From: Dokdonia sp. Hel_I_53
Lineage (GTDB): Bacteria > Bacteroidota > Bacteroidia > Flavobacteriales > Flavobacteriaceae
Reading direction: 5' to 3'
Assembly (NCBI RefSeq): GCF_007827465.1
Contig: NZ_VISL01000001.1
Location: 1,164,501-1,228,500 of the forward strand
Length of the DNA stretch: 64,000 nucleotides
Each line of letters starts with the position of its first letter. Positions within the stretch are counted from its first letter, which is position 1. Shown one piece after another: positions 168-61,028 of the stretch. Made by a program: the position numbers and the translations under genes. The notes under the pieces were generated by a model that did not search any database, was not told the origin of the DNA, and saw nothing but the letters and a program-made list of their open reading frames with translations.

Positions 168-943
168 TGGATATACTTGAAAGAATTACAATTGATAAAA
201 TAAGAGAGGTAGCTTTGAGAAAAAGTATGATTTCTATTAGTCAACTCGAGGCATCCTCACTATTTGAAAGAGAGACAGTATCTCTTGCCACAGCCATTAA
301 AAACGGTTCTGGAATTATTGCAGAGCACAAAAGAAGATCACCTAGTAAATCGGTAATTAATAATAGTTTGAGCGTACAAGATGTGGCGTTAGGCTATGAA
401 GATGCTGGTGCTAGCGGCATGTCTGTGCTTACAGATGGAAAATACTTTGGTGGATCGCTAGATGATTTGGTTCTAGCCAGAGCGGCGACAAAATTCCCAC
501 TCTTACGTAAGGAGTTTATCGTAAATGAATATCAAATTTTAGAAGCTAAAGCTTATGGAGCAGATGCTATTTTGTTGATTGCTGCTACGCTTTCGCGAAA
601 GCAAATAGAACAGTTTTCAACATTTGCCAAAGAGTTAGGACTTGATGTTTTATGTGAATCTCACAATGAAGAAGAGCTACACAACTCCCTCACCGAGACG
701 GTAGACCTCATTGGAATTAACAATAGAAATTTAAAAACTTTTGAAGTAAGTATTGATACTAGTAAGGAGTTAAGCAAACTTATACCAGAAGACTTTATCA
801 AAGTTTCAGAGAGCGGTATCAACTCGGTAGCGGCAATAAAAGAACTGCAGCCTTACGGTTTTAAAGGATTTTTAATAGGAGAAAATTTTATGAAAACTGA
901 TAATCCTGGAGCTGCTGCTCAGGATTTTATAAAGCAATTATAA
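167..943 (+). CDS. trpC: Indole-3-glycerol phosphate synthase
   Basis: A 258-residue TIM-barrel enzyme that closes CdRP to indole-3-glycerol phosphate, the fourth step from chorismate to tryptophan. Family signatures are visible: the active-site EHKRRSPSK segment near residue 55, LRKEFIVNEYQI, the strand GADAILLIAA, IGINNRNLKTF and a C-terminal phosphate-binding SESGI...GFLIGENFM. It is a stand-alone enzyme, not fused to TrpF as in enterobacteria. The start overlaps the trpD stop by one base and trpF begins two bases after its stop. It carries one copy of the dispersed palindrome at 589-602, read as LSRK. Confidence 0.95.
   Translation: MDILERITIDKIREVALRKSMISISQLEASSLFERETVSLATAIKNGSGIIAEHKRRSPSKSVINNSLSVQDVALGYEDAGASGMSVLTDGKYFGGSLDDLVLARAATKFPLLRKEFIVNEYQILEAKAYGADAILLIAATLSRKQIEQFSTFAKELGLDVLCESHNEEELHNSLTETVDLIGINNRNLKTFEVSIDTSKELSKLIPEDFIKVSESGINSVAAIKELQPYGFKGFLIGENFMKTDNPGAAAQDFIKQL
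589..602. repeat. Dispersed palindrome copy 1 (GCTTTCGCGAAAGC)
   Basis: Perfect 14-bp copy inside trpC, read in frame as T-LSRK-Q. Confidence 0.9.
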
Positions 944-945
944 TT

Positions 946-1584
946 ATGAAACTCAAAGTTTGCGGTATGAAATTTAATACAAAAGAAGTCGCGGTACTGC
1001 AGCCAGACTATCTTGGCTTTATATTTTATGAAAAAAGCAAACGTAATTTTGAGGATGCAGAAATACCAAACCTACCTAAGAGTATTCAAAAAGTAGGTGT
1101 TTTTGTAGATGCTGAGTACGCTTTCGCGAAAGCGAACATATTAGCACATAATTTAGATATCATTCAGCTTCATGGATCAGAATCACCCTTATACATTGAA
1201 GAATTAAAAAATGAGTTAAAACTAGCTGGCAAAGAAAACTTACAGTGGTGGAAGGTTTTTGGAATTGAGGATAGTTTTGATTTTAAGAAATTATTCCCCT
1301 ACCAAAAGCATGTGGATGCATTTCTCTTTGACACTAAAGGAAAGGAGAAAGGCGGCAATGGGTATACCTTTGATTGGAGCGTACTAGAAGATTATAATTT
1401 GCAAACACCCATCGTTTTAAGCGGTGGTATAGGCTTAGACCAAATAGAAGGTCTAAAAAAGATATTGAAAACAGATTTGCCTATTACCGCAATCGACGTG
1501 AATAGCAAATTTGAAACAAAACCTGGTTTAAAAGTTATAGACGATCTAAAAGAATTAAAAAAATTGATGGATGTAAATCTGTAA
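946..1584 (+). CDS. trpF: Phosphoribosylanthranilate isomerase
   Basis: A 212-residue TIM barrel catalysing the Amadori rearrangement of PRA to CdRP. The N-terminal MKLKVCGMKF carries the catalytic Cys of the KxCG motif. PDYLGFIFYEKSKRNF, IIQLHGSES, the FLFDTKGKEKGGNGYTFDW segment and LSGGIGLDQI also match the family, and IDVNSKFE near the C-terminus occupies the usual phosphate-site position. The gene lies two bases after trpC. A perfect dispersed palindrome at 1120-1133 encodes AFAKA in a helix before LDIIQLHG. The spacing between VFV and QLHG looks normal for the family, so the motif appears to replace codons rather than add them (inference). Confidence 0.94.
   Translation: MKLKVCGMKFNTKEVAVLQPDYLGFIFYEKSKRNFEDAEIPNLPKSIQKVGVFVDAEYAFAKANILAHNLDIIQLHGSESPLYIEELKNELKLAGKENLQWWKVFGIEDSFDFKKLFPYQKHVDAFLFDTKGKEKGGNGYTFDWSVLEDYNLQTPIVLSGGIGLDQIEGLKKILKTDLPITAIDVNSKFETKPGLKVIDDLKELKKLMDVNL
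1120..1133. repeat. Dispersed palindrome copy 2
   Basis: Perfect GCTTTCGCGAAAGC inside trpF, read as Y-AFAKA-N. Confidence 0.9.
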
Positions 1585-1594
1585 AAGGCAATAA

Positions 1595-2803
1595 ATGGCT
1601 ATGAATACATTAGAAAAAGAAAAAAATTACCAGGTAGACGAGCAGGGTTATTACGGAGATTTTGGCGGAGCATTCATTCCAGAAATGCTATACCCCAATG
1701 TTGAAGAACTACGGTCTCAATATATCCAGATTATGGAAGAGCCCTCTTTCCAAAAGGAGTTTAAAGAGCTTTTAAAAGATTATGTAGGTCGACCTACTCC
1801 ACTCTATTTTGCTGAACGTTTTAGCAAAAAGTATGGAGCAAAGATCTATTTAAAGAGAGAAGATCTTTGCCATACAGGAGCACATAAGGTAAATAACACA
1901 ATCGGCCAGATTTTAATGGCAAAACGCCTAGGAAAAAATCGCATTATCGCCGAAACTGGCGCTGGACAGCATGGTGTTGCCACTGCTACCGTTTGTGCAT
2001 TAATGGGTCTTGAATGTGTGGTCTATATGGGTGCGATAGATATCAAAAGACAAGCGCCTAATGTTGCCCGTATGAAAATGCTGGGTGCTACCGTAAAATC
2101 TGCAGAGTCTGGAAGTAAAACACTTAAAGATGCAACAAATGAAGCCATAAGAGACTGGATCAATAATCCTGTTGACACGCATTATATCATCGGTTCGGTA
2201 GTGGGACCTCATCCCTATCCAGATATGGTAGCTCGTTTTCAAGCCGTCATCTCTGAAGAGACTAAAAAACAGTTACTAGAGAAAGAAGGCCAAGAAAACC
2301 CAGATTATGTGGTAGCTTGTGTAGGTGGCGGGAGTAATGCAGCAGGCTTGTATTATCACTACTTAAACCAACCAGAGGTGGGCATCATCGCTGTAGAAGC
2401 AGCTGGAAAAGGCGTCGATTCTGGAGAAAGCGCCGCAACTTCTGCATTAGGAAGAGAGGGGATTATTCATGGGAGTAAAACCTTATTGATGCAAACAGAT
2501 GACGGGCAAATTACAGAGCCGTATTCTATTTCCGCCGGCTTGGACTATCCAGGCGTGGGTCCAATGCACGCAAACTTGTATCGCTCGGGTCGCGGGGAGT
2601 TCATTTCTGTGACAGATGAGGATGCCATGAAGGCTGGAATTGAGCTCAGTAAGTTAGAAGGCATTATTCCTGCTATTGAAACAAGTCATGCGCTAGCAAT
2701 TTTTGAAACTCGAAAATTCAAAAAAGATGATGTAATAGTGATCAATTTATCTGGCCGTGGGGACAAAGACCTCAACACCTATATCGAATATTTTAATCTT
2801 TAA
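1595..2803 (+). CDS. trpB: Tryptophan synthase beta chain
   Basis: A 402-residue PLP enzyme that joins indole and serine to give tryptophan. The PLP lysine is K98 in [23 protein letters not shown] holds the catalytic Glu, and [10 protein letters not shown] near residue 243 is the PLP-phosphate loop. The C-terminal half has [15 protein letters not shown] and the closing NLSGRGDKD. Full length for the TrpB1 family, so it should work in the alpha2-beta2 complex with trpA just downstream. ATG 1595 was chosen; the second Met two codons later is also possible. Between its stop and trpA there are only 20 bases, mostly filled by the palindrome. Confidence 0.97.
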
Positions 2804-2808
2804 ATCTC

Positions 2809-2822
2809 GCTTTCGCGAAAGC
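2809..2822. repeat. Dispersed palindrome copy 3, at the trpA ribosome-binding position
   Basis: Perfect copy ending one base before the trpA ATG (2824). It occupies the place where a ribosome-binding site would be, so trpA initiation must be coupled to trpB or use a non-Shine-Dalgarno mode. Confidence 0.9.
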
Positions 2823-2823
2823 T

Positions 2824-3585: not shown

Positions 3586-3672
3586 TTACTACTTTAACCC
3601 AACACTAACAGTGACTTAACACCAATTAACAAGTGAGCTTTCTATCTTTAATCAAAATAAAAAAAGAAAATT

Positions 3673-3801: not shown

Positions 3802-3813
3802 GTTCTACCGCAT

Positions 3814-3844
3814 AAAAAAACCGCTCTTGAAGCGGTTTTTTTTA
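3814..3844. terminator. Bidirectional intrinsic terminator
   Basis: Stem AAAACCGCT / AGCGGTTTT (3817-3825 with 3831-3839), loop CTTGA, T-run on the right and A-run on the left. It can end both the small plus-strand gene and the minus-strand ddl-coaD unit, whose last stop is at 3846. Confidence 0.88.
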
Positions 3845-3845
3845 T

Positions 3846-4298: not shown

Positions 4299-4331
4299 AA
4301 TTTTTCAATATTGATTACCAGACAAGTTAAT

Positions 4332-7070: not shown

Positions 7071-7084
7071 GCTTTCGCGAAAGC
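7071..7084. repeat. Dispersed palindrome copy 4
   Basis: Perfect GCTTTCGCGAAAGC, 22 bases after the rluD stop, in the gap before yaaA. Confidence 0.9.
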
Positions 7085-8870: not shown

Positions 8871-10619
8871 ATGAGAACGCTATTTATAGTATTGATTTTT
8901 GCATCGCTTTTAGGTTGTGGTGAAACTAAAGACAATCCAGAAAATATAGACTTCACTACCCCTTTTGAAAAGAGTGGCGGTACGCAAACTCCCACCTACG
9001 AAGAAGTAATTACATTTTATAAAGACCTTGATAACGCTTACCGTTCCATTAAGACCTATGAAGTAGGCATGACAGACGCAGGAAAGCCGCTTACGCTTGT
9101 AACGTTCAACCCTGATCGCTCATTTGATAGTGAATTTTCTGATGATAAAGATGTAACGCGTATTCTCATTAATAATGGCATTCATCCTGGAGAATCAGAC
9201 GGTATTGATGCAACAATGCTTTTAATGAGAGACCTTGCTCAAGGAAAAATTGAAGCTCCTAAAAATACGTGGGTGAGCGCAATTGCCATTTACAATATAG
9301 GTGGAGCACTTAACAGAAATAGTGGAACGCGTACAAATCAAAATGGACCTAAGGAATACGGCTTTAGAGGCAATGCTCGTAACTATGATCTTAATCGAGA
9401 TTTTATTAAAAGGGATACACATAACGCGGCTGCATTTGCAGAAATTTACCATATGATTGATCCAGATATTTTTATTGACAACCACGTAAGCAATGGTGCA
9501 GATTACCAATATACATTGACACACCTATTTACACAACATAATAAACTGGGTGGAAATCTTGGCACGTACGTACACAATGAATTTCAGCCCATGCTCGAAA
9601 ATGCTCTTCATAAAAAGGACTGGGATATCACACCTTATGTAAATGTCTTTAATTCCGTACCGGAAAAAGGTTTTAGTCAATTCATGGATCACCCTAGATA
9701 TTCGACCGGGTACACTACGTTATGGAACACTATTGGCTTAATGGTAGAAACTCACATGCTCAAACCCTATAAACCGAGAGTAGAAGGAACGTATGAGCTC
9801 ATGAAAAGTGTCATCAAAATCACTTCTGATAATAGTGATAAAATCAAAGAGATGCGAGAAAATGCGTTTAACGCTTTCGCGAAAGCGGATACTTACCCAA
9901 TACAGTTTACAATAGATAGTTTAAGAACAACCACACTAGATTTTAAGGGATATGAGGGCAATATGGTTTCTAGTGCTATTACTGGAAAAGATAGACTTCA
10001 ATATGATACCACTAAACCATTTACAAAAAAGGTAACCTACTACGATTACTTTAAGAGAACAAAAGAAGTCTCTATTCCTAAAGCGTATTTTATACCGAGA
10101 GGATATCGAGATATTGCTTTATTACTTAAAGCAAACAATATAGAGTTCAGCCAGCTTAAAAAAGACACGACATTTACAGCCGAAGTTTATCACATAGACT
10201 CGTATGACACACGAAATAATGCATATGAAGGACACTATCTACATTACAATACCGCAGTAAAATCATCTAAACAAGAAGTGACCATGCCTAAGGGTTCTTA
10301 TATGGTACCTACCAATCAAAGAGGAATACGTTACTTATTAGAAACTTTAGAACCAGAAGCAACAGATAGTTTTTTTAATTGGAATTTCTTTGATACCATA
10401 TTACAGCAAAAAGAGGGTTTCTCCCCATATGTATGGGAGGATAAAGCTGAAATATTTTTAAAGCAAAACCCAAAAATTCAAATTGAATTTAATTTAAAAA
10501 AATCATTAGATTCAGATTTTGCAGCTAATTGGTATGCGCAATTAGATTGGATTCATAAAAAATCTCCCGCTTACGAAAAGGCTCACCTACGCTACCCTAT
10601 CGTTAGGATGCTTAATTAA
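8871..10619 (+). CDS. M14-family zinc carboxypeptidase-like lipoprotein
   Basis: 582 residues. The signal peptide ends in the lipobox LLGC with Cys16, so it is a lipoprotein of the cell envelope. The zinc site of M14 peptidases is visible as H105xxE108 in NNGIHPGESDG and H204 in FIDNHVSNGADY. VETHMLKPYKPR resembles the catalytic-Glu region. Substrate is unknown; such secreted M14 proteins degrade exogenous peptides or peptidoglycan. A dispersed palindrome at 9873-9886 is read AFAKA. The 3' end overlaps the convergent NUDIX gene by 33 bases. A second, larger M14 protein lies at 50277. Confidence 0.85.
   Translation: MRTLFIVLIFASLLGCGETKDNPENIDFTTPFEKSGGTQTPTYEEVITFYKDLDNAYRSIKTYEVGMTDAGKPLTLVTFNPDRSFDSEFSDDKDVTRILINNGIHPGESDGIDATMLLMRDLAQGKIEAPKNTWVSAIAIYNIGGALNRNSGTRTNQNGPKEYGFRGNARNYDLNRDFIKRDTHNAAAFAEIYHMIDPDIFIDNHVSNGADYQYTLTHLFTQHNKLGGNLGTYVHNEFQPMLENALHKKDWDITPYVNVFNSVPEKGFSQFMDHPRYSTGYTTLWNTIGLMVETHMLKPYKPRVEGTYELMKSVIKITSDNSDKIKEMRENAFNAFAKADTYPIQFTIDSLRTTTLDFKGYEGNMVSSAITGKDRLQYDTTKPFTKKVTYYDYFKRTKEVSIPKAYFIPRGYRDIALLLKANNIEFSQLKKDTTFTAEVYHIDSYDTRNNAYEGHYLHYNTAVKSSKQEVTMPKGSYMVPTNQRGIRYLLETLEPEATDSFFNWNFFDTILQQKEGFSPYVWEDKAEIFLKQNPKIQIEFNLKKSLDSDFAANWYAQLDWIHKKSPAYEKAHLRYPIVRMLN
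9873..9886. repeat. Dispersed palindrome copy 5
   Basis: Perfect copy inside the M14 lipoprotein gene, read N-AFAKA-D. Confidence 0.9.
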
Positions 10620-13258: not shown

Positions 13259-13272
13259 GCTTTCGCGAAAGC
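13259..13272. repeat. Dispersed palindrome copy 6, between transketolase subunits
   Basis: Perfect copy in the 41-base gap between the two subunit genes, inside an operon, so a transcription-terminator role is unlikely here. Confidence 0.9.
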
Positions 13273-15032: not shown

Positions 15033-15046
15033 CGCTTTCGCGAAAG
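15033..15046. repeat. Dispersed palindrome copy 7
   Basis: Perfect copy between the bidirectional terminator and the end of the convergent FKBP gene. Confidence 0.9.
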
Positions 15047-15056
15047 CGTGACCTAA

Positions 15057-19496: not shown

Positions 19497-19510
19497 GCTT
19501 TCGCGAAAGC
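19497..19510. repeat. Dispersed palindrome copy 8
   Basis: Perfect copy immediately after the terminator of the MORN-like gene. Confidence 0.9.
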
Positions 19511-20118: not shown

Positions 20119-21111
20119 CTACCTTCTAGATTTCGGAATCTTATTTGCTGCGGTACAAGGACAATCACTAATACCTTGCAAGAGATCTAATCCTATAGTG
20201 ATAGAATGTGTTCCAGAATTGTAAGACATCATATCGTTAAGAGTAACCTGATATGCGTAAGAGGCATAGAATATAGATTTTTTACCGCCTATCATCGGTC
20301 CAACGCTCAAAGGTTTCCCAATTTGATCATTGAGGAATCTATAGGTGGCTCCAGCCCATAAGTAATCATTATACCTATTAAATTTTCTGTACTTTATATT
20401 TAAATCTGTACTTGAACGGCCGTCACTTGTATACAATTGATAAAAGGCAGAAGGCTCCCACTGCGAATAATTATTTGTTTTTAAAGTATATCCCCCATAC
20501 AGTTGTAAATTAAACAATAGGTTTGGCTCTAGTCCATCAAAACGTTCGATGTCTTTAGGAAGTATATTATTTGCATTAACACTTAAAAATGCTTCTCCTA
20601 TTCTGTATAGTACTCCTACATCAAAGTTCAAATTTGTTTCTGATCTATTATCTGTAATAAAAGGGTCTATTGTAGGTTGCTCAAACGTGGGTGAAAAGTT
20701 ATCAATGTCTAAACTAAAACTGTTTACGTTTCCTGACAAACCAAAAGAGATATACTGTTTTGTATTATAATCAAGCGTAAGATGGTGTGCAAATGAAACT
20801 TTAGCTCCCTGTTGTATGGTATTACCATTTCTATCATTATATAATGATAGCCCCAATCCAGATTGTGTTGCAAACCTAAGGTCTGCGTAGAAAGCTTGAT
20901 TATCTGGAGCATTAGGAATACCTACCCATTGTGTCAGCGCATTGAGGCGAATCCTAAAGTTATCACCTATACCTGCATAGGTAGGTGCCACTACAAAATC
21001 GCTATCTGCCAAATATTGGCTAAATACAGGTAAATTTAATTCCTGTGAAGTTCCTTGTATCGCTGTAACAAACAGCGATACATAAAGAACATATTTTACT
21101 AAAACTTTCAT
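20119..21111 (-). CDS. sprF: PorP/SprF family outer-membrane protein
   Basis: 330 residues. The signal peptide MKVLVKYVLYVSLFVTAIQGTSQ is followed by the family opening LPVFSQYLADSDFVVAPTYAGIGDNFRIRLNALTQWVGI. Beta-strands and a C-terminal SITIGLDLLQ show the PorP/SprF barrel that, in Flavobacterium johnsoniae, is needed for delivery of SprB to the surface through T9SS. It lies 25 bases after the giant sprB on the same strand, the last gene of the operon. Several antisense ORFs here are shadows. Confidence 0.9.
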   Translation of the reverse strand: MKVLVKYVLYVSLFVTAIQGTSQELNLPVFSQYLADSDFVVAPTYAGIGDNFRIRLNALTQWVGIPNAPDNQAFYADLRFATQSGLGLSLYNDRNGNTIQQGAKVSFAHHLTLDYNTKQYISFGLSGNVNSFSLDIDNFSPTFEQPTIDPFITDNRSETNLNFDVGVLYRIGEAFLSVNANNILPKDIERFDGLEPNLLFNLQLYGGYTLKTNNYSQWEPSAFYQLYTSDGRSSTDLNIKYRKFNRYNDYLWAGATYRFLNDQIGKPLSVGPMIGGKKSIFYASYAYQVTLNDMMSYNSGTHSITIGLDLLQGISDCPCTAANKIPKSRR

Positions 21112-27100: not shown

Positions 27101-30100
27101 AACATCTGTTGTCGATAAAGCAGAGATATCAATAGGAGATAAAGGTGGTGTAGTTACTTCAATTATTGAGAAGCAACTACCTGCATCCTCCACTTGAAAG
27201 AAGTAGGTTGTATTGTGATCGAGTCCTGTAAAAGTATGAGATGTGTTTGCTGTCGGTCCAAAAGCCGTAGCCGGTTGACCAAATATAGAGTAGATAAATG
27301 GTTGAGCACCAGTTAGAACTTCTATGGTAACTGTTGCACCTGTTGCACAAGAGCCGGTAGTGGTGTTACTGGTCAAACTAATATTTGGTGGTGTTTCAAT
27401 ACGTTGAGCCGCACTTCTAAAATCACAACCATTTGCATCAACAATTGTTACAAAATAATCACCAAAACTAAGTCCAGAGAACGTATGTGTTGTCAAAGCT
27501 GTACTTCCACTCGTATCAATTTGCGTATTTGTATTATCAAATAAAGTGTAGATAAATGGTGCTACTCCACCTGAGTTTATTGTAACATCCAAACTACCAG
27601 GTACATTTGAATTACATTGGATAGCGTTTCTTACTATGGTCACATCGATCGGTGCTGGATCATTCAAAGTAATAGACCCAGTATCCTCACACTGTTTACT
27701 ATCTCTTACAACATAATTATAAGTTCCTGCACTCAAACCACCAAACACATTTGAGGAAACAAAGGTAGTTCCGCCATCAATACTATAGGTAAACGGAGCC
27801 TCTCCTGAGGTAGCCGTCAAGGTGATAGACCCGTTGGTATCTCCATTACAAGTAGGGTCTATATGAGTCTCGGTTGCTGTAACTGGAACTAATGGATCAA
27901 TAGTATGAACAACAGAAGTAACAGAACAACCATTGCTATCTGTTATTCTAAATTGATAGTCTCCAGGATTAGGAGTACTATAAATGAATGGTGAGGTCAA
28001 GGCTCCTTGTGGATTAAATCCACCTCCATTAAATTCTACCTCATAGGTATATGGTCCAGAACCTCCATTAAAAGTAAGTGTAATTTGAGCTTCAGATGGT
28101 AAAGGTGGTGCACAATCAAACTCTTCAGTGATTTCACTGTTTAATACTAGCTGAGGACTCACAGTAACTGAATTACTTGTAGCAGTACATCCATTAGCAT
28201 CTCTTACAGTAACGGTGTAGGTTCCTGGTGTTACCGTAAATGTAGCACTTGTTTGGAAATTCGTTCCATCTATACTATATGCATATGGTGAAACTCCTGA
28301 ACTTGCTGTTGCGGTAATGGTATAGCTATTACCAATCGTACCACATTGGTCGTCTACCGCAAGAGTAACTGTAGGTGTAGGATCTGTAACGATATTGATA
28401 TCTTGAGATACCGTACAATCATTTGCATCTTTTACCCATACTGTGATATTAGATCCTAAAACACTTGTATCTACCGTAGTCGTATTACTAAAAGCAGATG
28501 GCGCTGGTGCTGGATCTCCCTGAATGACATAGGCATACGTATAGCCTGGTGTTCCACCGCTAGGTCCTGTAAAAGTAATAGTTGAAATAGATTCATTACA
28601 ATTTACACTCGATGCCGTAGCTGTAAATGTAATCTGTGTCGCTGCGTCTATTGTTACGCTCGCAGAGTCGGTACATCCTGTAGCGGTATCAACGACATCA
28701 ATAGTATATGTCCCTGCGGTAAGACCTGTTACGGTTACTACATTATCTACTTGAGTATCTGTAGTTACAGTAGGACTAATTGTATAGGTATAATTGCCAG
28801 TACTGCTCACATCTGTAATGGTAAATACCGCTTCGCCATCACCTGCATTAAAACATTGTTCGTCCGCTTTCGCGAAAGCTACCTGAATAGGTCGAACAGG
28901 TGAAATACTATGTGATGCTGTAGCCGAACAACCATTTGCATCTGTCACCTCAAATGTATAATTACCAGGAGTTAGTCCTGTGAAAACACCTGAGTTCACA
29001 CCCGTAGTATTTGTCGTAGCAGCACCTGGTGCAGTAATTACAAATGTAAACGGAGAAATCCCTCCCGTAGGTGTTACCGTCACATCTGTGGTCGTATCAT
29101 TACAAGTAATGGCATTTGAATCTGCAAAAGCCACTCCTGTTATAGGATCATATGGTGGAATATCTATAGAATCAGTATCGATACACCCATTAGTATCCCT
29201 TACAGCATACGTAATATTTTGTATTACACCAGTATTATTTACCGTATACGTGTTTGAACTCGAATAAGAACTTCCTTCGAAACTGTACTCATAACTCCCT
29301 GTACCACCAGTGGCAGTTACCGTTATTACAGTTGTAGCACTACAGCTAGTATTAGCTGGAATAGAAGCAGACGCTACAAGTTCATCTGGGTTATTTAAAG
29401 TTACACTTATAGTACCTATACACTCGTTTCCATCACGCACATAGAAAGTGTAAGTTCCAGCAACTAAACCTGTAAATAATGGGTCTGATGTATAGGTAAC
29501 ATTATCATCACTATACATATACGCACCAGAACCCCCTGAGCCCGTAAGAAGCACTTGCCCATTGCTATCATTAAAACATAATGGATCTGTTGGGGTTGCA
29601 ACTACTGTAGGATTAGTGATAGGTGCAACAGTGGTTACTCCAGATTCCGCGATACAACCTTGATCGTCTGTCACTTGAAATTGGTATGTACCGTCTGTTG
29701 TTACCGTGTAGGTAAAAGGAGATCCTGTTGTTCCTAACGAAGTGTATGCTGCACCATTTATAGAAACAGCATAGGTGTATGGAGGATAGCCTCCAGTTAT
29801 AGTTCCCGTGATTTGACCATCAGGAGACGATGTACAATCTAGTTCTTTATCTAATATCGTAGTTAATGACAATTGTGGAGCAATACTCTGACTTGCCAAA
29901 GTAAGTGTACATCCATAAGCGTCTCTTACAGTAATAGTATAACTTCCAGGTATAAGATTTGGAAAACTGTTACTCGCCTGAAATGGACCTCCATTTATAC
30001 TAAATTCAAACGGCGCTACTCCAGCAGTTACATCTACCACTAAAGTGGCTCCACTAGTTGTATCATAACAAAGGTTAGATGTGCCACTTAATGTAGCTTC

Positions 30101-41545: not shown

Positions 41546-41559
41546 GCTTTCGCGAAAGC
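41546..41559. repeat. Dispersed palindrome copy 10
   Basis: Perfect copy between the tRNA-Leu terminator and the promoter of the MerR-type regulator. Confidence 0.9.
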
Positions 41560-45416: not shown

Positions 45417-45430
45417 GCTTTCGCGAAAGC
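45417..45430. repeat. Dispersed palindrome copy 11
   Basis: Perfect copy between crtZ and the epimerase gene. Confidence 0.9.
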
Positions 45431-45470: not shown

Positions 45471-46463
45471 ATGCAATACACATCACTCGTCACAGGAGGG
45501 GCTGGCTTTATAGGTAGTCACGTCGCATCGTATTTACTACAACATGAGCACAAAGTGGTCGTCCTTGATGATCTCTCTGGTGGATTTGAAGAAAATATTC
45601 CAGAAGAATGCCTTTTTATAAAGGGCTCGGTTACAGATTATCAACTAGTAAATGAGCTTTTTAATACCCATGTTTTTGATTATGTCTATCATCTGGCAGC
45701 GTATGCCGCCGAGGGTTTGAGTCATTTTATACGACGTTTCAATTACGAGAATAATGTTATAGGTAGTATAAATTTGATCAATGCATCAGTCAATCACGCT
45801 GTGAAAAAATTTATTTTCACTAGCTCAATCGCTGTATACGGTTCACAAGAATTGCCACTTCGAGAATCGCAAAATCCGCAGCCAGAAGATCCTTACGGTA
45901 TTGCAAAATATGCTGTGGAAATGGATCTTAAAAACGCACACGAAATGTTTGGGTTAGATTATATCATTTTTAGACCTCATAATGTGTACGGGCCAGGACA
46001 GAATATAGGGGACAAATATCGCAATGTTGTTGGCATATTCATGAATCAGATTCTTAAAAAAGAAGCACTTACCATTTTTGGCGATGGAAAGCAAACTCGT
46101 GCGTTTACCTATATAGATGACGTGGCTCCATATATTGCTGCGAGTTACGCTTTCGCGAAAGCGGATAATCAAATTTTCAACATAGGTTCAGATATTCATC
46201 ATACTGTGCAGCAACTCGCTGAAGAAGTTAACAAAGCAATGAGTAGCTCGACTCAAATTACGCATTTAAAAGAGCGTAATGAGGTGCAGCATGCCTATGC
46301 AGATCACTGTAAATTTGAGGACATATTTGAGCCTGCTGTAAAAACTACTCTTGAAGACGGTTTAAAAGTAACAGCGAGATGGGTAATTGATAAAGGATCA
46401 AGAGAAAGCCAGCCATTTCAACATATAGAAATTAAAAAAAACCTTCCCCCATCTTGGCAATAG
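45471..46463 (+). CDS. NAD-dependent epimerase/dehydratase (UDP-glucose 4-epimerase-like)
   Basis: 330 residues of the extended SDR family. The Rossmann motif TGGAGFIGSHVASYLL lies at the N-terminus, followed by VVLDDLSGG, catalytic TSSIAVYGS and YGIAKYAVE (Tyr and Lys), and FRPHNVYGPGQN. It acts on a nucleotide sugar for glycan synthesis; the exact sugar is not decidable. A palindrome copy at 46149 is read AFAKA. The glycosyltransferase 84 bases downstream suggests a shared surface-polysaccharide or protein-glycosylation role. Confidence 0.88.
   Translation: MQYTSLVTGGAGFIGSHVASYLLQHEHKVVVLDDLSGGFEENIPEECLFIKGSVTDYQLVNELFNTHVFDYVYHLAAYAAEGLSHFIRRFNYENNVIGSINLINASVNHAVKKFIFTSSIAVYGSQELPLRESQNPQPEDPYGIAKYAVEMDLKNAHEMFGLDYIIFRPHNVYGPGQNIGDKYRNVVGIFMNQILKKEALTIFGDGKQTRAFTYIDDVAPYIAASYAFAKADNQIFNIGSDIHHTVQQLAEEVNKAMSSSTQITHLKERNEVQHAYADHCKFEDIFEPAVKTTLEDGLKVTARWVIDKGSRESQPFQHIEIKKNLPPSWQ
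46149..46162. repeat. Dispersed palindrome copy 12
   Basis: Perfect copy inside the epimerase gene, read Y-AFAKA-D. Confidence 0.9.
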
Positions 46464-48079: not shown

Positions 48080-48093
48080 GCTTTCGCGAAAGC
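48080..48093. repeat. Dispersed palindrome copy 13
   Basis: Perfect copy between the convergent trmL and the gene at 48103. Confidence 0.9.
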
Positions 48094-50276: not shown

Positions 50277-52775
50277 ATGAAACGCCTTCTCATAAATACT
50301 GTTTTCTTACTATTCACATCAATATTAGCTGCTCAAGTTCAGTCTCCTTCAGAATTTTTGGGGTATGAAATAGGTACAGAATTTTCTCGTCACGCAGATG
50401 TGGTACGGTATTTCCATCATGTTTCAGAAAATAGTGACCTAGTTACCTATCAACAATATGGTAAGACTAATGAACGTAGACCCCTCACATATGCAGTCGT
50501 TACCAGTGAGACTAACCATAGTAATTTAGAGGCTATACGTAAAACTAATCTTGTACAAACAGGAATTTTAAAAGATAACGCTTTCGCGAAAGTGGACCCC
50601 GAAACAGCCATTGTTTGGCTTTCGTATAATGTACACGGGAATGAAGCCTCATCTACTGAAGCTGCCATGGCAACACTTTATGAATTAGTAACTTCAAAAA
50701 AAGAGTATTTAAACAATACCGTTGTCATTATAGACCCATGTGTCAATCCAGATGGAAGAGACCGTTATGCAAATTGGTACAACCAAGTGAAATCAACACC
50801 ATACGATCCATTGCAAATTGCAGCCGAACATGATGAGCCTTGGCCGGGAGGTCGACCTAATCACTATCTTTTTGACCTCAACCGCGACTGGATGTGGGCA
50901 ACGCAAGTAGAAACACAACAGCGTCTTAAGATTTATAACAAATGGATGCCGCATATTCACGTAGATTTTCACGAACAGGGAATCAATGAGCCTTATTACT
51001 TTGCACCCGCTGCAGAGCCATTTCATGAAGTGATAACAGACTTTCAACGTGATTTCCAAACTACTATTGGGAAAAACCATGCAAAATATTTTGACGAAGA
51101 AGGATGGCTATTTTTCACCAAAGAGCGATTTGACTTATTATACCCTAGCTACGGTGACACCTATCCCATATTTATGGGAGCGATTGGGATGACTTATGAG
51201 CAAGCGGGTCATGGCCGTGCAGGATTAGGCATTAATACCGATGAAGGATATGAACTTACTCTTATAGATAGAGTAGCACATCACAAGACAACTGGTTTAT
51301 CTACTGTAGAGGTAGCTTCTCAAAACGCACAAACTCTAAATACCGAGTTTAAAAATTATTTTAAAAATGATAATCTAAAATATAAAAGTTATGTGCTTTC
51401 AGGTGATAGTTCGCGCTTAAAATCTCTAGCAGAGCTACTTGACAAACATGAAATTATCTATGGATTTGCGACTGATGGAACAGCTACAGGCTTTAATTAT
51501 TCCCAAAACAAAAAAGGAAATCTCAAGTATGATAGTGCTATGGTTGTAAGCACAAATCAACCTAAGGGAAAAATGGTCAAAGTGCTTTTTGAACCTAATG
51601 CAAAATTAAGTACACCGCTCACATATGACATTACAGCATGGAGCTTACCACATGCATACGGTCTTGAGGCCATTGCTAGTGAAACTTTAGTAAATACCAC
51701 TGCCGTTAGCCCCTTTGTAGATAATATAGCTACAACTGGTCGCGCAGGTTATATCGCACAGTGGAAAAGCATGCAAGATGCTCGCTTTCTGGCAGATTTA
51801 ATTAAACAAGGAATTAGAGTACGCTTTACGGAAAAGCCTTTTATAAATAGAAGAAAAAGTTATGACCGCGGCTCACTTATATTAACCAGAAGAGACAATA
51901 AATTAAATGATGATTTTGATGCGACGGTCAAAAAAATTGCAGCTAAACACAATGTACAATTAGACGGAACTTCCTCAAGTTTTTCTGATGCTGGACCAGA
52001 TTTTGGCTCTCCAGAAGTAAAACTTATCAATCCACCTAAAATAGCATTATTAAGAGGTGATAACACCTCATCATTAAGTTATGGCGCTACGTGGTATTTC
52101 TTTGAACAAACACTTGAATACCCGGTCACTTCGGTGTATACATCTAGCCTATCTCGTACATCCTTAAATCAGTTTGATATTATTGTAATGCCTAGCGGTT
52201 GGTATAATAGTATCTTGACGGAAGACGGGCTTAAAAAAATCAAAGATTTTGTTCAGAACGGAGGTAAAATAATAGCCATTTCAAATGCTGTTAGTAGTTT
52301 TGCTGGAAAATCTGGTTTTAGCTTAAAGCGAAAATCTTCAGGAAGCACTACAGATGAAGATGAAACACAAACAGATGATAAGCTTATACCTTACGGTGAT
52401 CGAGAAAATGCTAGTACAAAGAATTTTATAACCGGAGCTATTTTCAAAGCTAAGGTAGACCCTACGCATCCACTAGCTTTTGGATATCCAGAAAATTATT
52501 TTACGCTAAAATTAGGGAGTACCTCGTATGATTATCTGGACAAAGGTTTTAATGTTGCATGGATTCCAGATGAAATCACTAACGTTTCTGGTTTTGCTGG
52601 AGAAAGTGCTAAAGAAAAACTACGTAAATCAATGATTTTTGGTGAAGAAAGAATCGGTAGCGGTAGTATTATCTATATGGTAGATGACCCACTATTCAGA
52701 GGGTTTTGGGAAAATGGTAAATTATTTTTTGCAAATGCTTTATTCTTTACGAATAATAACAAATTCAGGCTTTAA
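50277..52775 (+). CDS. Secreted M14-family zinc carboxypeptidase
   Basis: 832 residues. A signal peptide (MKRLLINTVFLLFTSILAAQ) precedes the peptidase domain with zinc ligands H120xxE123 in LSYNVHGNEASSTEAA and H232 in HVDFHEQG, substrate-binding NPDGRDRYANWYN and LNRDWMWATQ. A second half (about 420-830) contains a glutamine-amidotransferase-like fold segment (IIVMPSGWYN...GGKIIAISNAV). The palindrome at 50580 has one mismatch and is read AFAKV. No T9SS sorting domain is obvious at the C-terminus (FFANALFFTNNNKFRL). Substrate unknown. Confidence 0.88.
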   Translation: MKRLLINTVFLLFTSILAAQVQSPSEFLGYEIGTEFSRHADVVRYFHHVSENSDLVTYQQYGKTNERRPLTYAVVTSETNHSNLEAIRKTNLVQTGILKDNAFAKVDPETAIVWLSYNVHGNEASSTEAAMATLYELVTSKKEYLNNTVVIIDPCVNPDGRDRYANWYNQVKSTPYDPLQIAAEHDEPWPGGRPNHYLFDLNRDWMWATQVETQQRLKIYNKWMPHIHVDFHEQGINEPYYFAPAAEPFHEVITDFQRDFQTTIGKNHAKYFDEEGWLFFTKERFDLLYPSYGDTYPIFMGAIGMTYEQAGHGRAGLGINTDEGYELTLIDRVAHHKTTGLSTVEVASQNAQTLNTEFKNYFKNDNLKYKSYVLSGDSSRLKSLAELLDKHEIIYGFATDGTATGFNYSQNKKGNLKYDSAMVVSTNQPKGKMVKVLFEPNAKLSTPLTYDITAWSLPHAYGLEAIASETLVNTTAVSPFVDNIATTGRAGYIAQWKSMQDARFLADLIKQGIRVRFTEKPFINRRKSYDRGSLILTRRDNKLNDDFDATVKKIAAKHNVQLDGTSSSFSDAGPDFGSPEVKLINPPKIALLRGDNTSSLSYGATWYFFEQTLEYPVTSVYTSSLSRTSLNQFDIIVMPSGWYNSILTEDGLKKIKDFVQNGGKIIAISNAVSSFAGKSGFSLKRKSSGSTTDEDETQTDDKLIPYGDRENASTKNFITGAIFKAKVDPTHPLAFGYPENYFTLKLGSTSYDYLDKGFNVAWIPDEITNVSGFAGESAKEKLRKSMIFGEERIGSGSIIYMVDDPLFRGFWENGKLFFANALFFTNNNKFRL
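50580..50593. repeat. Dispersed palindrome copy 14 (one mismatch)
   Basis: GCTTTCGCGAAAGT: last base changed. Inside the M14 gene, read N-AFAKV-D. Confidence 0.85.
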
Positions 52776-52792: not shown

Positions 52793-54043
52793 TTAATGTA
52801 AAGTTGAGTCTACTAAAGAAAAACTAACCATTTCAACTTTAGAAGAGTCATTTTGTAACATTGTAAAAGCAATATAAACTTGGTTGTCTACGACCGCTAG
52901 CTGTGGAAATCCACTCTGGCGTTCTGCAGAGATATTTGAGACCGTGATAGGATTGCTAAATATTCTGTTAGTATTCACTTTAGTTATTTTCAATGCTGTT
53001 TTATCATCTTGAGGTTCTAGCCAGCTCACTAGTGCATTCCCGTCTTTTAAAAACTGAGCACCTACTCTGCCTATTGCATTACCGCTGTCTAAACGAATTG
53101 GGTTTTGGAAACTCTCTCCAGCATCAGTAGAAAAAGCTACCATTACTCTAGGAGTTTCACCTTGTGCCGTAAACCATGAGACCACAACGTTCATACCCTG
53201 AGTATCCATTGCAGGTCCATTGACAGGGCATCCGTTTAATTTCCAATCATCATGGGCAATAGGAGTTGGCTTTGTCCACACTCCATCCACATATCTTACA
53301 ATCGAGATGTCACGTATTTCTTCCTCTGTACTTGTACGATCACGATAAACCACAATAGGACCATTTTCTGTAATTGCAGTTGCAGTACTACAACAATCGC
53401 ATACTCTGGCATCTAATTCTGTTTCTTTTGTGATTACCCCTTCTGCAGTGACAAAAGCATTTCGCAAGGTCATTTGATTTTTATAACGATCTTTATTTTT
53501 TGTATTTCTTCCATCTAGCCAGCTTACAGAAAAACCATCATTGTATGGTTTACTGGAAACAAAACCATGCTCTGCTGCAATGCCATCGGTATTCAAAAGT
53601 ATATTTGAATTTCTAGAACGCTTTCGCGAAAGCGTATCAAAAACACTCAACTTGATATCGTAATCGTAAGTTCCTTCAGCAGATTTTTCTAAAATATTAG
53701 CAAGTACTTTGTCTCCATTCACAGAAAGTGACGGAAAATCTGCCCAGTTTATAAACCAGTTTGTACCGGAAGTAACGGTTTTTGGTATACTCCACGTATC
53801 ATTTTCAAACCATGCATATTTTAAAATAGAAAGGCTGTCCTCCTCCTCAACCCAAGACATATGCAATTTATCTTTTGTGCTATAAAGTCTAGGTAGGTGA
53901 GAAACTCCTTGTTGAGGAAGTGCGATAGATCTTAAAAAAAACTTAGATTCCTTTTGATGCGTCAAAGACGCATTTGTTTTTGATGATTGGTTACAAGAAA
54001 AAAGCAGCCCTGTTATAACTAATGAGATGATCTGTATACGCAC
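52793..54043 (-). CDS. BNR/sialidase-like lipoprotein with a CDCC motif
   Basis: 416 residues. Lipobox LLFSC with Cys17. A beta-propeller-like pattern carries BNR/Asp-box-like turns (SADKLHMSW-type strands, FSTDAGESFQNPIRL). A conserved-looking ARVCDCCSTATAI (C215, C217, C218) and NGCPVNGPAMD (C272) may form a metal site or disulfide cluster. I think it belongs to an exo-sialidase-like family, but glycosidase activity is unproven. It carries a palindrome copy at 53620 read LSRK. Convergent with the M14 gene. Confidence 0.72.
   Translation of the reverse strand: MRIQIISLVITGLLFSCNQSSKTNASLTHQKESKFFLRSIALPQQGVSHLPRLYSTKDKLHMSWVEEEDSLSILKYAWFENDTWSIPKTVTSGTNWFINWADFPSLSVNGDKVLANILEKSAEGTYDYDIKLSVFDTLSRKRSRNSNILLNTDGIAAEHGFVSSKPYNDGFSVSWLDGRNTKNKDRYKNQMTLRNAFVTAEGVITKETELDARVCDCCSTATAITENGPIVVYRDRTSTEEEIRDISIVRYVDGVWTKPTPIAHDDWKLNGCPVNGPAMDTQGMNVVVSWFTAQGETPRVMVAFSTDAGESFQNPIRLDSGNAIGRVGAQFLKDGNALVSWLEPQDDKTALKITKVNTNRIFSNPITVSNISAERQSGFPQLAVVDNQVYIAFTMLQNDSSKVEMVSFSLVDSTLH
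53620..53633. repeat. Dispersed palindrome copy 15
   Basis: Perfect copy inside the BNR-like lipoprotein gene, read on the minus strand T-LSRK-R. Confidence 0.9.
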
Positions 54044-54094: not shown

Positions 54095-55456
54095 TTATTT
54101 ACTTTGAGAATGAGCAGCCCTTTTTGCATGTAACGGCTGTGGTTTTTCTAACGTTGTCACAGGTGTTGCATAAAGGTCAAAATCTTCTGCCTCTGTAATA
54201 ATTACTTTTGTGTAATCGCCTATTTTTAAATAGTGAGTTGTGGCGTCAACCAGCACTTCATTATCTACGTCTGGGCTATCAAACTCTGTACGACCAATAA
54301 AGAAATTACCCTCTTTACGATCTACCACTATTTTAAATTCTTGACCTATTTTTTGCTGATTGAGCTCCCATGAAATTTGTGATTGTATTTCCATGATTTG
54401 ATTTGCACGATCCATTTTCACCTCATCAGGAACATCATCTTCTAAGTTATACGCATGCGTATTTTCTTCATGAGAATAGGTAAAACAACCAAGACGCTCA
54501 AAGCGCTGATCTTTAACCCATTGTTTTAGGATTTGAAAATCCTCTTCAGTCTCTCCTGGATACCCAACAATAAGCGTAGTTCTTATGGTCATTCCTGGTA
54601 CGCTTTCGCGAAAGCGTTCTAGCAATGCATTCGTTTTTGCCATAGTAGTACCACGGCGCATAGATTTTAATATCGAATCTGAAATATGTTGTAGTGGGAT
54701 ATCAATGTAGTTACAAACCTTTGGCTCACGGCGCATTACATCAAGCACATCGATAGGGAATCCAGTTGGGAATGCATAGTGCAGTCTAATCCACTCAATA
54801 CCTTCTACCTTAACCAAGTTTTCTAATAACTCTGCAAGGTTTCTCTTTTTGTATAAATCGAGCCCATAGTAGGTGAGATCTTGTGCTATAAGAATTAATT
54901 CTGAAACACCGTTTGCTGCTAGTTTTTGAGCTTCTGTTACTAAATGCTCAATCGGTTTTGACTTATGCTTACCTCTCATAAGCGGAATTGCACAAAATGA
55001 ACACGGACGGTCACAGCCTTCGGCAATTTTTAAATAGGCATAGTTTTTTGGTGTTGTGGTAAGACGCTCTCCAATAAGTTCATGCTTATAATCTGCTCCT
55101 AGTGCTTTTAAAAGTCCAGGCAACTCTGTAGTCCCAAAATACTGATCTACATCTGGAATTTCTTTTTGAAGATCTGGCTTATAGCGTTCAGAGAGACATC
55201 CTGTAACAAAAACCTTATCAACTTCACCTTCTTCTTTTTGTTTGACATACTCCAGAATAGTATTTACAGATTCTTCCTTTGCATTATCAATAAACCCACA
55301 CGTATTAATTACCACAATGTTTCCTTCTTCTTCATGAGCAACATCCATCTCATTTGCTTTGAGTTGGCCCATTAAGACTTCACTATCATAAACGTTTTTT
55401 GAGCAACCTAAAGTAACAACGTTTATCTTATTCTTTTTCAGTGATTTCGTACGCAT
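54095..55456 (-). CDS. rimO: Ribosomal protein S12 methylthiotransferase
   Basis: 453 residues from ATG 55454-55456 (MRTKSLKKNKINVVTLGCSKN). An in-frame ATG at 55480 overlaps an exact promoter box and is unlikely. RimO is a radical-SAM enzyme with two 4Fe-4S clusters that methylthiolates Asp89 of S12. The N-terminal cluster cysteines lie in LGCSKNVYDSE, NTCGFIDNAKEES and VTGCLSERY; the radical-SAM CxxxCxxC is CDRPCSFC. A TRAM-like C-terminal domain follows. It contains one palindrome copy (54602) read RFRES. Confidence 0.95.
   Translation of the reverse strand: MRTKSLKKNKINVVTLGCSKNVYDSEVLMGQLKANEMDVAHEEEGNIVVINTCGFIDNAKEESVNTILEYVKQKEEGEVDKVFVTGCLSERYKPDLQKEIPDVDQYFGTTELPGLLKALGADYKHELIGERLTTTPKNYAYLKIAEGCDRPCSFCAIPLMRGKHKSKPIEHLVTEAQKLAANGVSELILIAQDLTYYGLDLYKKRNLAELLENLVKVEGIEWIRLHYAFPTGFPIDVLDVMRREPKVCNYIDIPLQHISDSILKSMRRGTTMAKTNALLERFRESVPGMTIRTTLIVGYPGETEEDFQILKQWVKDQRFERLGCFTYSHEENTHAYNLEDDVPDEVKMDRANQIMEIQSQISWELNQQKIGQEFKIVVDRKEGNFFIGRTEFDSPDVDNEVLVDATTHYLKIGDYTKVIITEAEDFDLYATPVTTLEKPQPLHAKRAAHSQSK
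54602..54615. repeat. Dispersed palindrome copy 16
   Basis: Perfect copy inside rimO, read on the minus strand E-RFRES-V, the third possible reading frame. Confidence 0.9.
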
Positions 55457-55477
55457 TTCCTTTGTATTTTGGGAGTG

Positions 55478-55485
55478 CAAAGATA
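55478..55485 (-). promoter_or_regulatory. rimO -7 promoter box
   Basis: Minus-strand TATCTTTG (plus CAAAGATA), exact TAnnTTTG, 21 bases before the rimO ATG at 55456. No clear TTG upstream. Confidence 0.5.
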
Positions 55486-56704: not shown

Positions 56705-56718
56705 GCTTTCGCGAAAGC
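56705..56718. repeat. Dispersed palindrome copy 17
   Basis: Perfect copy in the 25-base gap between the convergent serine hydrolase and the small membrane protein genes. Confidence 0.9.
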
Positions 56719-57059: not shown

Positions 57060-57104
57060 TCAAGTCTATATCAAAACTGCTCTACTAAAATTAAATTTTA
57101 AAGA

Positions 57105-58058: not shown

Positions 58059-58430
58059 TATTGATGGTTTGTATGTTACTAAGAACAGTTAAAGAGAATT
58101 CTCCTCCACTGCTTGATTCTATCGATTTTGATTTGACAAAAATAGTGCCTTTTAATGAGAATGTCGTTATGGCAGTTTGTACGCTTTCGCGAAAGCGTAA
58201 TCTTCACTATAAAATCCTCTATTTCCTAAGGAAATTATCTTCTAAAATCTTATTTTTACGAGAAGGCACGATTGTAAAATCTGAAGAATTATTGATACGT
58301 AGACCTTAAAATTTAACCGAAAGAAATTAAAAGTTTTCTGGCCTTTTGAAAGGTGTTTCAAAATATTAATAATTTTTTTTGCAGATACTTAGTTTTAGAA
58401 TTAAACTACAACTTATACTAAAAAAGATAT
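58059..58430. other. Region between divergent ftsY and mpl
   Basis: 372 bases with no convincing gene. It holds a palindrome copy (58183) and a minus-strand TATTTTTG box (plus CAAAAATA, 58137-58144) about 78 bases before ftsY, a candidate ftsY -7 element. An 82-codon plus-strand ORF (58061-58309) is judged spurious because its sequence includes the palindrome and has no recognisable features. Confidence 0.5.
58183..58196. repeat. Dispersed palindrome copy 18
   Basis: Perfect copy with symmetric flanks ACGC...GCGT, in the divergent ftsY-mpl spacer. Confidence 0.9.
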
Positions 58431-59783: not shown

Positions 59784-59836
59784 CAATATCTAACAATCTA
59801 CACTAACCATAGTAACTAATCAATAAAACAACTTAA

Positions 59837-60973
59837 ATGAAATTTATTATTACATCAATAGCGCTATTTTTTATCGCTGTAGCTTCTCACAGTCAAGAGA
59901 TAAAAAAAATATCAAGAGACTGGACTTCTTTTTCTCAATCTATAAATATTTCTACTGATTCACCTAGAAAGTTTATTCTCAAAGGTAGTATTAGAGTAAT
60001 TCCAAAAGATAGCATGTCTGGAGCTGGATTATGGGCAAGAGTTGACAGAAGTGATGAAGAAAGAGGTTTTTTTGACAATATGAGTGACCGATTAGTTCAA
60101 AGTTCTGAATGGAAAGAATACACGATCGAAGGATCATTTAACAAGAATGCAAAAAAATTGGTTTTTGGAGGGCTTGTACATAACGATGGAGAATTTTTTT
60201 ATGATAATATATCGTTGCAAATTGAAGATGAAGAAGGAGAAATGAAGTTAGTAACCTTAGGGAATCCAAGTTTTGAGAGCCCTTTAAAAAACGGAATTAT
60301 TAAAGATTGGTCACCAGGAATCTCAAAGAACAAAACAGTATTAGTCAATGAGTATAAAATGAGTTCTAGTAAAAATGCAGTTGATGGATCCTTTTCATTA
60401 CTAATTAAAGGAGAAGGTACAGAACCTGGATATTCTCCAACCCGTATAGGCGAAATAGAGGGATACACACCTCAAGTTGGGGCACTTATCACTATGCTTG
60501 ATGATTTAAAGAGCAGAGTAAAAGATAGAGTAAAAAATCTATCTCAATATGAGGTAGATCACTTACACGATGAAGAAGCAAATCGGATAGGAGCTTTAAT
60601 AATGCACCTAGCAAGTGCAGAGGTGATTTACCAAAACCTTACTTTTGAAGGAAGAGAGTTTAATGAAGAAGAGAAAGAGAAATGGGAACCAGCGTTGGAC
60701 TTAGGAAAAAAAGGTCGTGATACCTTCAAAGGAAAGCCTATCTCCTATTACCTTAAAGAATATGACAAAGTAAGAGCTCGAACTAAAGAGCTTTTTAAAA
60801 CGGTTGACGACGAGTGGCTTATGCAGGAAATTCCTGCAGGAGGAATTACAAACTTTTTCTCTTGGTTTCATGTAATGGAACATCAATCCAGTCACTTAGG
60901 ACAGATCTTATTTTTAGCAAAACGGATACCACCAGAAGCTGAAATTCTAGCTCCAGAAGAAATTAAAAATTAA
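59837..60973 (+). CDS. Secreted DinB-superfamily protein with N-terminal carbohydrate-binding-like domain
   Basis: 378 residues. Signal peptide MKFIITSIALFFIAVASHSQ. Residues 25-200 form beta-strands (RKFILKGSIRVIPKDSMSGAGLWARVDRSD, VFGGLVHNDGEFFYDNISLQIED, GSFSLLIKGEG) like a galactose-binding jelly-roll. The C-terminal part (about 215-365) is a DinB-like four-helix bundle with potential metal His residues in IMHLASAEVIYQNLTF and WFHVMEHQSSHLGQILFLAKRI. DinB proteins are usually cytoplasmic thiol-linked or metal-dependent transferases, so the secreted fusion is unusual. Own terminator follows. Confidence 0.75.
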   Translation: MKFIITSIALFFIAVASHSQEIKKISRDWTSFSQSINISTDSPRKFILKGSIRVIPKDSMSGAGLWARVDRSDEERGFFDNMSDRLVQSSEWKEYTIEGSFNKNAKKLVFGGLVHNDGEFFYDNISLQIEDEEGEMKLVTLGNPSFESPLKNGIIKDWSPGISKNKTVLVNEYKMSSSKNAVDGSFSLLIKGEGTEPGYSPTRIGEIEGYTPQVGALITMLDDLKSRVKDRVKNLSQYEVDHLHDEEANRIGALIMHLASAEVIYQNLTFEGREFNEEEKEKWEPALDLGKKGRDTFKGKPISYYLKEYDKVRARTKELFKTVDDEWLMQEIPAGGITNFFSWFHVMEHQSSHLGQILFLAKRIPPEAEILAPEEIKN

Positions 60974-61014
60974 ATATACCTGTGAAAATTCTAATCAGTA
61001 TTACCCTCTTTTGA

Positions 61015-61028
61015 TCTTTCGCGAAAGC
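61015..61028. repeat. Dispersed palindrome copy 19 (one mismatch)
   Basis: TCTTTCGCGAAAGC: first base of the left arm changed; between the DinB-like gene and gyrB. Confidence 0.85.

Follow-up and report, generated by a model that had tools for sequence, protein, structure and literature searches.

The stretch analysed here, referred to throughout as the window, is 64 kb of a Dokdonia genome (G000:C1:1164501-1228500; the genome is a single contig of 2.93 Mb). Dispersed through it, from trpC at one end to the gap between an ORF and gyrB at the other, is the word GCTTTCGCGAAAGC, a perfect 14-bp palindrome present in 17 perfect and two one-mismatch copies. An earlier note on this DNA had drawn attention to these 19 copies, all of which exist, and had rightly set apart those at 50580 and 61015 as carrying one mismatch each; the copy that it placed at 15033 starts at 15034. 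Across the whole genome the exact word occurs 700 times, against none for the reversed control word, and it looks like an undescribed genome-wide interspersed DNA signal, kin in kind to uptake sequences and to the highly iterated palindromes (HIPs) of cyanobacteria. The comparison with HIP1 or uptake motifs, already made in the earlier note, is upheld.

The copies are given below in window coordinates, with their position relative to open reading frames (ORFs) and the state of the word at the same place in those relatives that could be aligned, chiefly other Dokdonia together with genomes of the genus g11 and of g191. Of the 17 perfect sites, 11 were alignable with at least one relative. ORFs come from a simple longest-ORF script, and all coding and non-coding counts are approximate.

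589..602: perfect, inside trpC (167-943); intact in 6/6 aligned Dokdonia and in g191
1120..1133: perfect, inside trpF (946-1584) in the frame AFAKA; intact in 4/6 aligned Dokdonia
2809..2822: perfect, between tandem genes, 5 nt past a stop codon; of four aligned Dokdonia, two intact and two with the full word beside an insertion (scored as lost by the script); not in g191
7071..7084: perfect, tandem intergenic, 21 nt past a stop codon; also in G301 and in G242 of g11, not in G190 of g191
9873..9886: perfect, inside ORF 8871-10619; in 6/6 aligned Dokdonia
13259..13272: perfect, tandem intergenic, 9 nt past a stop codon; in 5/6 aligned Dokdonia, 0/3 in g11 and g191
15034..15047: perfect, convergent intergenic; in 6/6 aligned Dokdonia
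19497..19510: perfect, convergent intergenic; no relative aligned
28866..28879: perfect, inside a 4362-aa ORF (21137-34225); no relative aligned
41546..41559: perfect, inside a 67-codon short ORF, a doubtful gene; not intact in the one aligned Dokdonia
45417..45430: perfect, tandem intergenic; no relative aligned
46149..46162: perfect, inside an epimerase-like gene (45471-46463); no relative aligned
48080..48093: perfect, convergent intergenic; no relative aligned
50580..50593: one mismatch, GCTTTCGCGAAAGT, inside a peptidase M14-like gene (50277-52775); perfect word in 0/4 aligned Dokdonia
53620..53633: perfect, inside ORF 52793-54043; in 1/4 aligned Dokdonia
54602..54615: perfect, within a gene of MiaB/MTTase type on the - strand (54095-55480), where it falls in the codons CGC TTT CGC GAA AGC; in 7/7 aligned Dokdonia; also in g191, not in g11 or a Nonlabens metagenome-assembled genome (MAG)
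56705..56718: perfect, convergent intergenic by the script's ORF set; in 1/2 aligned Dokdonia
58183..58196: perfect, inside an 83-codon short ORF, a doubtful gene; no relative aligned
61015..61028: one mismatch, TCTTTCGCGAAAGC, between ORF 59837-60973 and gyrB (61186-63129); not perfect in the one aligned Dokdonia

Excess over chance and placement

When up to three mismatches are allowed, the window yields 22 matches, compared with 1.75 on average and never more than 8 in 100 dinucleotide shuffles. Of the 20 occurrences of TCGCGA in the window 19 lie within copies of the word; the earlier note had noticed no other and missed the remaining one, at 62379. Its claim that the word is far above chance is borne out on a wider scale: a 464-kb sample of the genome, made up of the window and a further 20 stretches each 20 kb long, with N at 2,500 positions, contains 114 perfect copies against 0.001-0.009 expected from Markov models of orders 1-4, and order 5, the 6-mers of which derive from the copies themselves, expects 1.25. 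Neither of the outcomes that the note had named as fatal to its claim, a count close to the Markov expectation or copies restricted to the window, was observed. The excess extends to near-matches in a graded manner, with 114, 18, 20 and 17 sites at 0, 1, 2 and 3 mismatches in the sample against 0, 0.25, 0.75 and 6.75 expected, and 14 of the 20 two-mismatch forms lack the terminal pair of bases at one end. Strong excess in coding and non-coding DNA alike and a graded excess of near-matches are traits that this strict short word shares with uptake sequences. PMC1939737 takes such a near-match footprint as molecular drive.

About half of the copies are inside ORFs, in agreement with the earlier note, which had placed them in coding and non-coding DNA alike. 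The 114 sampled copies divide into 54 within ORFs, 57 intergenic ones and three at stretch ends, in DNA that is approximately 90% coding; corresponding figures for copies in ORFs are 130/245 for Dokdonia and 108/187 for g11. Uptake sequences lie in ORFs in 65% of cases in H. influenzae and in 35% in N. gonorrhoeae (PMC1939737). Intergenic DNA has 2.2 copies per kb between convergent genes, 1.4 between tandem and 0.7 between divergent ones, and the 109 intergenic Dokdonia copies tend to follow stop codons closely, 41 of the 68 tandem ones lying no more than 21 nt and 23 of the 29 convergent ones no more than 20 nt past the stop. Within genes, the recurrent reading frames are AFAKA (28), LSRK (15) and RFRES (11); in one protein AFAKA sits at an apparent signal-peptide end.

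Density is even round the chromosome, with 2-7 copies in each of the 20 stretches (mean 4.85, variance 1.9). No stretch is rich or empty, and the bias towards origin or terminus seen in matS, SlmA and Noc sites is not apparent, as judged by the evenness of these stretches with the positions of origin and terminus unmapped.

In the window, only two copies (28866 and 41546) lie between those at 19497 and 45417, and this low density could mark a more recent island. The 4362-aa ORF within that interval adjoins PorP/SprF-like and CHU_C genes of type IX secretion (20119-21111, 34285-37308, 37310-38770).

Distribution among genomes

All 18 Dokdonia genomes searched carry the word, in 369-905 copies. 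Across the family (299 genomes) it is present at least once in 61, though in more than 19 copies in five only, namely two Dokdonia (700 and 857), two genomes of g11 (578 and 664) and one of g191 (408). Among 395 genomes of the phylum, the inner TTTCGCGAAA is high in G000 only (832, with 13 for the control word), all others having at most 29. A comparison across related flavobacteria, which the earlier note had proposed, thus finds high counts limited to one clade. The nearest named relatives by the MiaB/MTTase-type protein are Dokdonia, with identities of up to 92%, and among 80 named loci the word is present in all eight Dokdonia loci and in four others (the Nonlabens MAG, MAG SAT51 and two Leeuwenhoekiella). 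Whole-genome counts, which cover 35 of these 80 loci, are 570-905 in six Dokdonia, 288 in the Nonlabens MAG, 89 in SAT51, 5-26 in five Leeuwenhoekiella and 1-6 in four others, with none in the remaining 18.

In a MiaB tree of 44 rows, genomes with at least 288 copies form one group, consisting of Nonlabens/g11 and of g191 with Dokdonia, with weak support for the group as a whole (42/94). A single origin of the word in the high-count clade is likely. SAT51 (G706, locus L185) and the five Leeuwenhoekiella may represent intermediate stages at which the word is being gained or lost.

In the 66 of the 80 named loci that are at least 15 kb long, no dispersed 12-mer with three or more G/C reached four copies except this word, which did so in five Dokdonia loci and SAT51; otherwise, the scan for similar dispersed words gave two weak AT-rich palindromes. 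No description of the word was found in the literature searched, most subscription journals being outside its coverage.

Conservation of places

Of 49 cases in which an orthologous place could be aligned within Dokdonia, 39 have an intact word, and in two others it is complete but adjoins an insertion. Control 14-mers from the same alignments, taken every 7 bases, overlapping and unmatched for coding class, are identical in 1.2-3.1%; in intergenic alignments, the word itself could help the sequences to align. Outside the genus the word is intact in one of three aligned cases in g11 and one of four in g191 (controls 0.5-1.9%). There is also turnover, in that some relatives hold copies where the window has none. 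At the place orthologous to 13259 in L255 (G306), a longer sequence replaces the word and has a different inverted-repeat-like stretch, TGTCCTGAGCGATCCGAAGGATG.

In the MiaB gene, all 13 Dokdonia and g191 rows, some of which share one genome, read CGC TTT CGC GAA AGC, that is RFRES, whereas other flavobacteria have different residues around the FR pair and their arginine is mostly AGA or AGG. SAT51 has a half-formed word, and g11 and the Nonlabens MAG have none here. The protein sequence thus differs where the word forms in MiaB. The DNA word is conserved at its places.

Spacing and mutual exclusion

Over the first 100 copies of G000, the gaps have a coefficient of variation (CV) of 0.71; random placement gives 0.99, and none of 10,000 randomisations was as low. 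Two gaps are shorter than 1 kb where 20 are expected. The G000 stretches give the same picture, with five adjacent pairs closer than 1 kb against 21.9 expected, as do G299 (four against 22.8; CV 0.74, 5 of 10,000 as low), one contig of D. sinensis (two against 9.5; CV 0.73, 155 of 10,000) and the g11 stretches (two against 29). For g191 the result, no pairs against 1.9 expected, is not significant (P 0.11), 19 sites being too few to tell. Relative to random, pair density is 0.08 at 0-0.5 kb, 0.16 at 0.5-1 kb and 0.7-0.9 at 1-3 kb, and beyond this it varies between 0.75 and 1.36 with no clear trend. The pattern is one of exclusion below 1 kb without a fixed period. Spacing that is more even than random is likewise a trait of uptake sequences, and it is found wherever sites were sufficient in number.

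The few close pairs were considered as a possible clue to autoregulation. Those at 411628/411851 in G000 and 349483/349680 in G299 have no mutual blastn match and differ in their flanking genes, and this idea was rejected. A third, at 4219/4343 in L013, was inspected by reading alone and gave no such clue.

Flanks and footprint

The word extends beyond its core. The base preceding it is C in 80% of non-coding half-flanks in Dokdonia (n=149) and 97% in g11 (n=134), and a preference reaches out to about -19, the strand entering the core being C-poor and G/T-rich, with the mirror image on the opposite side. The footprint is accordingly near 52 bp, made up of the 14-bp core and approximately 19 bp per half-site. 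The asymmetry of composition is present in coding copies too, on both sides. Each genus has its own flank dialect, TAC-core-GTA in Dokdonia and TYYC-core-GRRA in g11, the latter with T at -4 (92%), -10 (82%) and -13 (66%). Clade dialects are also a feature of the uptake signal sequences (USS) of Pasteurellaceae and the DNA uptake sequences (DUS) of Neisseriaceae.

In non-coding flanks of both Dokdonia and g11, over the tested range of -5 to -19, there is an excess of T at -7, -10, -13 and -16, a 3-nt rhythm that was spotted before being tested; taking the maximum over phases, none of 3000 permutations was as high in either genus, while a stricter non-coding set gave 14 as high in Dokdonia and none in g11, again out of 3000. 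Period 3 exceeds periods 2, 4 and 5 in Dokdonia. In the strict g11 set, the contrast for period 4 is 0.167 as against 0.163 for period 3, and the g11 pattern may come from individual strong positions, -10 for instance, instead of a rhythm. The enriched non-coding T positions are in phase with the AFAKA reading frame.

Left and right flanks show no stem-like covariation: one of 24 flank pairs is more complementary than expected (z 2.5) and two are less so (z -2.3 and -2.4). The 3' flank is A-rich, not U-rich. Such flanks would fit a symmetric protein complex that recognises double-stranded DNA.

Phages and probably transferred copies

The related phages P12024S and P12024L, from a Nonlabens/Persicivirga strain the own word content of which was unchecked, have no copies in 71 kb. 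At least 14 viral records, picked for carrying the word, contain 2-7 copies in 12-40 kb; they overlap partly and several appear, from spacings that they have in common, to be fragments of a single virus, so no phage rate is derivable from them. Four of these records encode, among other proteins, an integrase, a primase, portal proteins and a major head protein.

In low-count flavobacteria, copies are often clustered. One cluster, in L029, lies in genes for an RND efflux pump, outer-membrane efflux (OEP) and a heavy-metal ATPase, with a multicopper oxidase gene between. A spacing of 933 bp between copies recurs in L029, L030, L032 and L033, which are otherwise nearly without the word, and the low-count clusters are therefore probably transferred islands. 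Copies at this spacing might serve as a tracer of transfer out of the high-count clade.

A proposed self-DNA signal and its alternatives

From positional conservation, mutual exclusion, limitation to a clade and long symmetric flanks we infer a dedicated reader protein, which would exist in one flavobacterial group comprising Dokdonia, g191 and g11/Nonlabens. The reading we favour, with a probability of about 0.4, is that the 14-mer is the core of a roughly 52-bp symmetric double-stranded site for a dimeric or otherwise symmetric protein and marks self-DNA in the manner of USS and DUS. Word-bearing DNA would be preferentially taken up or accepted, and homologous recombination would restore the word wherever a copy decays, so that copies would stay at the same places even though no single one need be important. 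Within 1 kb, a second copy would be redundant and hence not kept, the ladder of near-matches would arise from biased recombination, and copies would be pushed into permissive coding frames and the DNA just past stop codons. We favour this reading because biased recombination would explain the kept places, the 1-kb exclusion and the near-match ladder at once. Like the word, USS and DUS are strict short sequences interspersed in coding and non-coding DNA alike, numbering from the hundreds into the thousands, with fairly even spacing, flank preference and a near-match ladder (PMC7811141 and PMC1939737); USS flanks are AT-rich (PMC7811141). Within the same family, R. columbina prefers its own DNA in transformation, by a signal that PMC7965970 does not identify.

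Several observations nevertheless weigh against an uptake signal. The word is a palindrome, whereas known uptake signals are non-palindromic (PMC1939737). Those signals also occur in other phyla than Bacteroidota and have proven uptake. Copies repel one another strongly, and few places are shared between genera. Word-bearing viral records have one third to full host density, which counts against a self-mark since such a mark predicts otherwise, barring its spread to resident phages. Neither a receptor nor a binder was found, and competence of Dokdonia was not found in the literature (competence genes were not searched for in the genome). More doubtful is the specific version in which the word would be a palindromic self-recognition or uptake signal, the first such and the first in Bacteroidota, with two G/T-rich arms, contacts every 3 nt if the Dokdonia rhythm is real, maintenance by biased recombination and genus dialects; the period-4 contrast in g11 led us to lower our estimate of it slightly.

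The main rival, itself tentative and nearly as likely as an uptake signal, is a chromosome-organising site, where a clade-specific dimeric nucleoid or loop-anchor protein with one site per ~4 kb would occlude or bridge about 1 kb. The palindromic form, the long and symmetric footprint, the even distribution of copies round the chromosome and their exclusion at short range all suit this, but if any site per few kb sufficed copies should move freely, while within Dokdonia their places are largely kept, and no binder was found. Sites of Noc, SlmA, MatP and parS are palindromic, 12-16 bp long and bound by dimeric chromosome proteins, but number a few to tens with a bias to origin or terminus; the word shares their symmetry, and its 700 evenly spread copies give a distribution unlike that of MatP, SlmA or Noc. 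A ParB/Noc-type site in particular was rejected: each of seven high-count genomes has one ParB and no extra paralogue, and there is a separate parS-like pair. This pair, 1.9 kb apart, is present in all five high-count genomes tested (G000, G299, G301, G190 and G242), as against 1, 1, 0 and 0 matches in four other flavobacteria; in G000 it lies at C1:2004776 and 2006676. The sites have one mismatch to the parS pattern, except in G242, which has the perfect form; they are putatively parS and likely mark the centromere region of these genomes. It is unlikely that the word is a palindromic Chi-like signal for recombination or repair, at which an end-resecting nuclease would halt and load RecA on the G/T-rich strand running 5' to 3' into the word. 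Known Chi sequences have 5-8 nt, for which 14 strict positions are long, and there is no obvious reason for signals of this type to exclude each other below 1 kb. Nonetheless, on either strand the ~19 nt 5' of the word are rich in G/T and poor in C, with the 3-nt rhythm in Dokdonia, viral records carry the word, and its density of roughly one per 4-5 kb resembles that of E. coli Chi (GCTGGTGG; 1008 copies in 4.64 Mb, PMC1939737), which also has a G/T-rich context but is 8 nt and polar.

We consider it improbable that the word is kept as HIP1 may be, by an orphan methyltransferase together with strand-directed mismatch repair. HIP1 and other cyanobacterial HIPs are likewise highly iterated palindromes in coding and non-coding DNA, but HIP1 has 8 bp, occurs at 300-2700 per Mb in most genomes and is tied to CGATCG methylases, which are almost coextensive with it (PMC4390886); the word has 14 bp plus flanks at ~240 per Mb in G000. 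No matching orphan enzyme of the 5-methylcytosine type emerged, PF00145 being not found in four of seven high-count genomes including G000 (families for N6-methyladenine and N4-methylcytosine were not searched). TCGCGA shows no excess outside the word, since 142 of its 172 occurrences in the sample are inside TTCGCGAA and the other 30 compare with 28-38 expected (Markov orders 1-3), and C>T at an inner CpG accounts for just one of 18 one-mismatch copies. A short methylation target as driver, one of the roles offered in the earlier note, is thus unsupported. An element acting in RNA, a terminator or mRNA-end hairpin, is very improbable in spite of the many intergenic copies just past stop codons. 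Half of the copies are inside ORFs, flank complementarity is at chance level, and neither the U-rich 3' tract nor the covarying stem of an intrinsic terminator was found, so that a simple terminator role is disfavoured, in line with the earlier note. Least probable of all is a dispersed mobile repeat, whether a repetitive extragenic palindrome (REP) with its associated RAYT transposase or a miniature inverted-repeat transposable element, or a ParB/Noc-type site. REP and BIME elements are palindromic and often lie past stop codons. The word too is palindromic with many copies, and both g11 genomes have Y1 transposases, but no conserved unit extends past the flanks described, the Y1 family PF01797 was not found in four of four Dokdonia or in g191, and with 54 of 114 copies in ORFs the word is not extragenic; REP/RAYT was rejected on these grounds.

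Implications

We set the word apart from both uptake sequences and HIPs because it fails one tested feature of each, as a palindrome in the former case and, in the latter, because no m5C methylase was found in four of seven high-count genomes. New here are the kept places, the avoidance below 1 kb, the footprint of ~52 bp and the non-covarying flanks with an A-rich 3' side. Few groups are known to have interspersed genome signals, and whether these originate by drive or by function is still argued. The present clade offers named cultured strains, a very strict word of likely single origin, relatives with intermediate counts, base-exact sites within a genus and flank dialects, making spread by transfer and spread by cell function testable against each other. 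A reader protein, if one exists, would give Bacteroidota a new system of sequence-specific DNA binding, either for choice of self-DNA or for folding of the chromosome.

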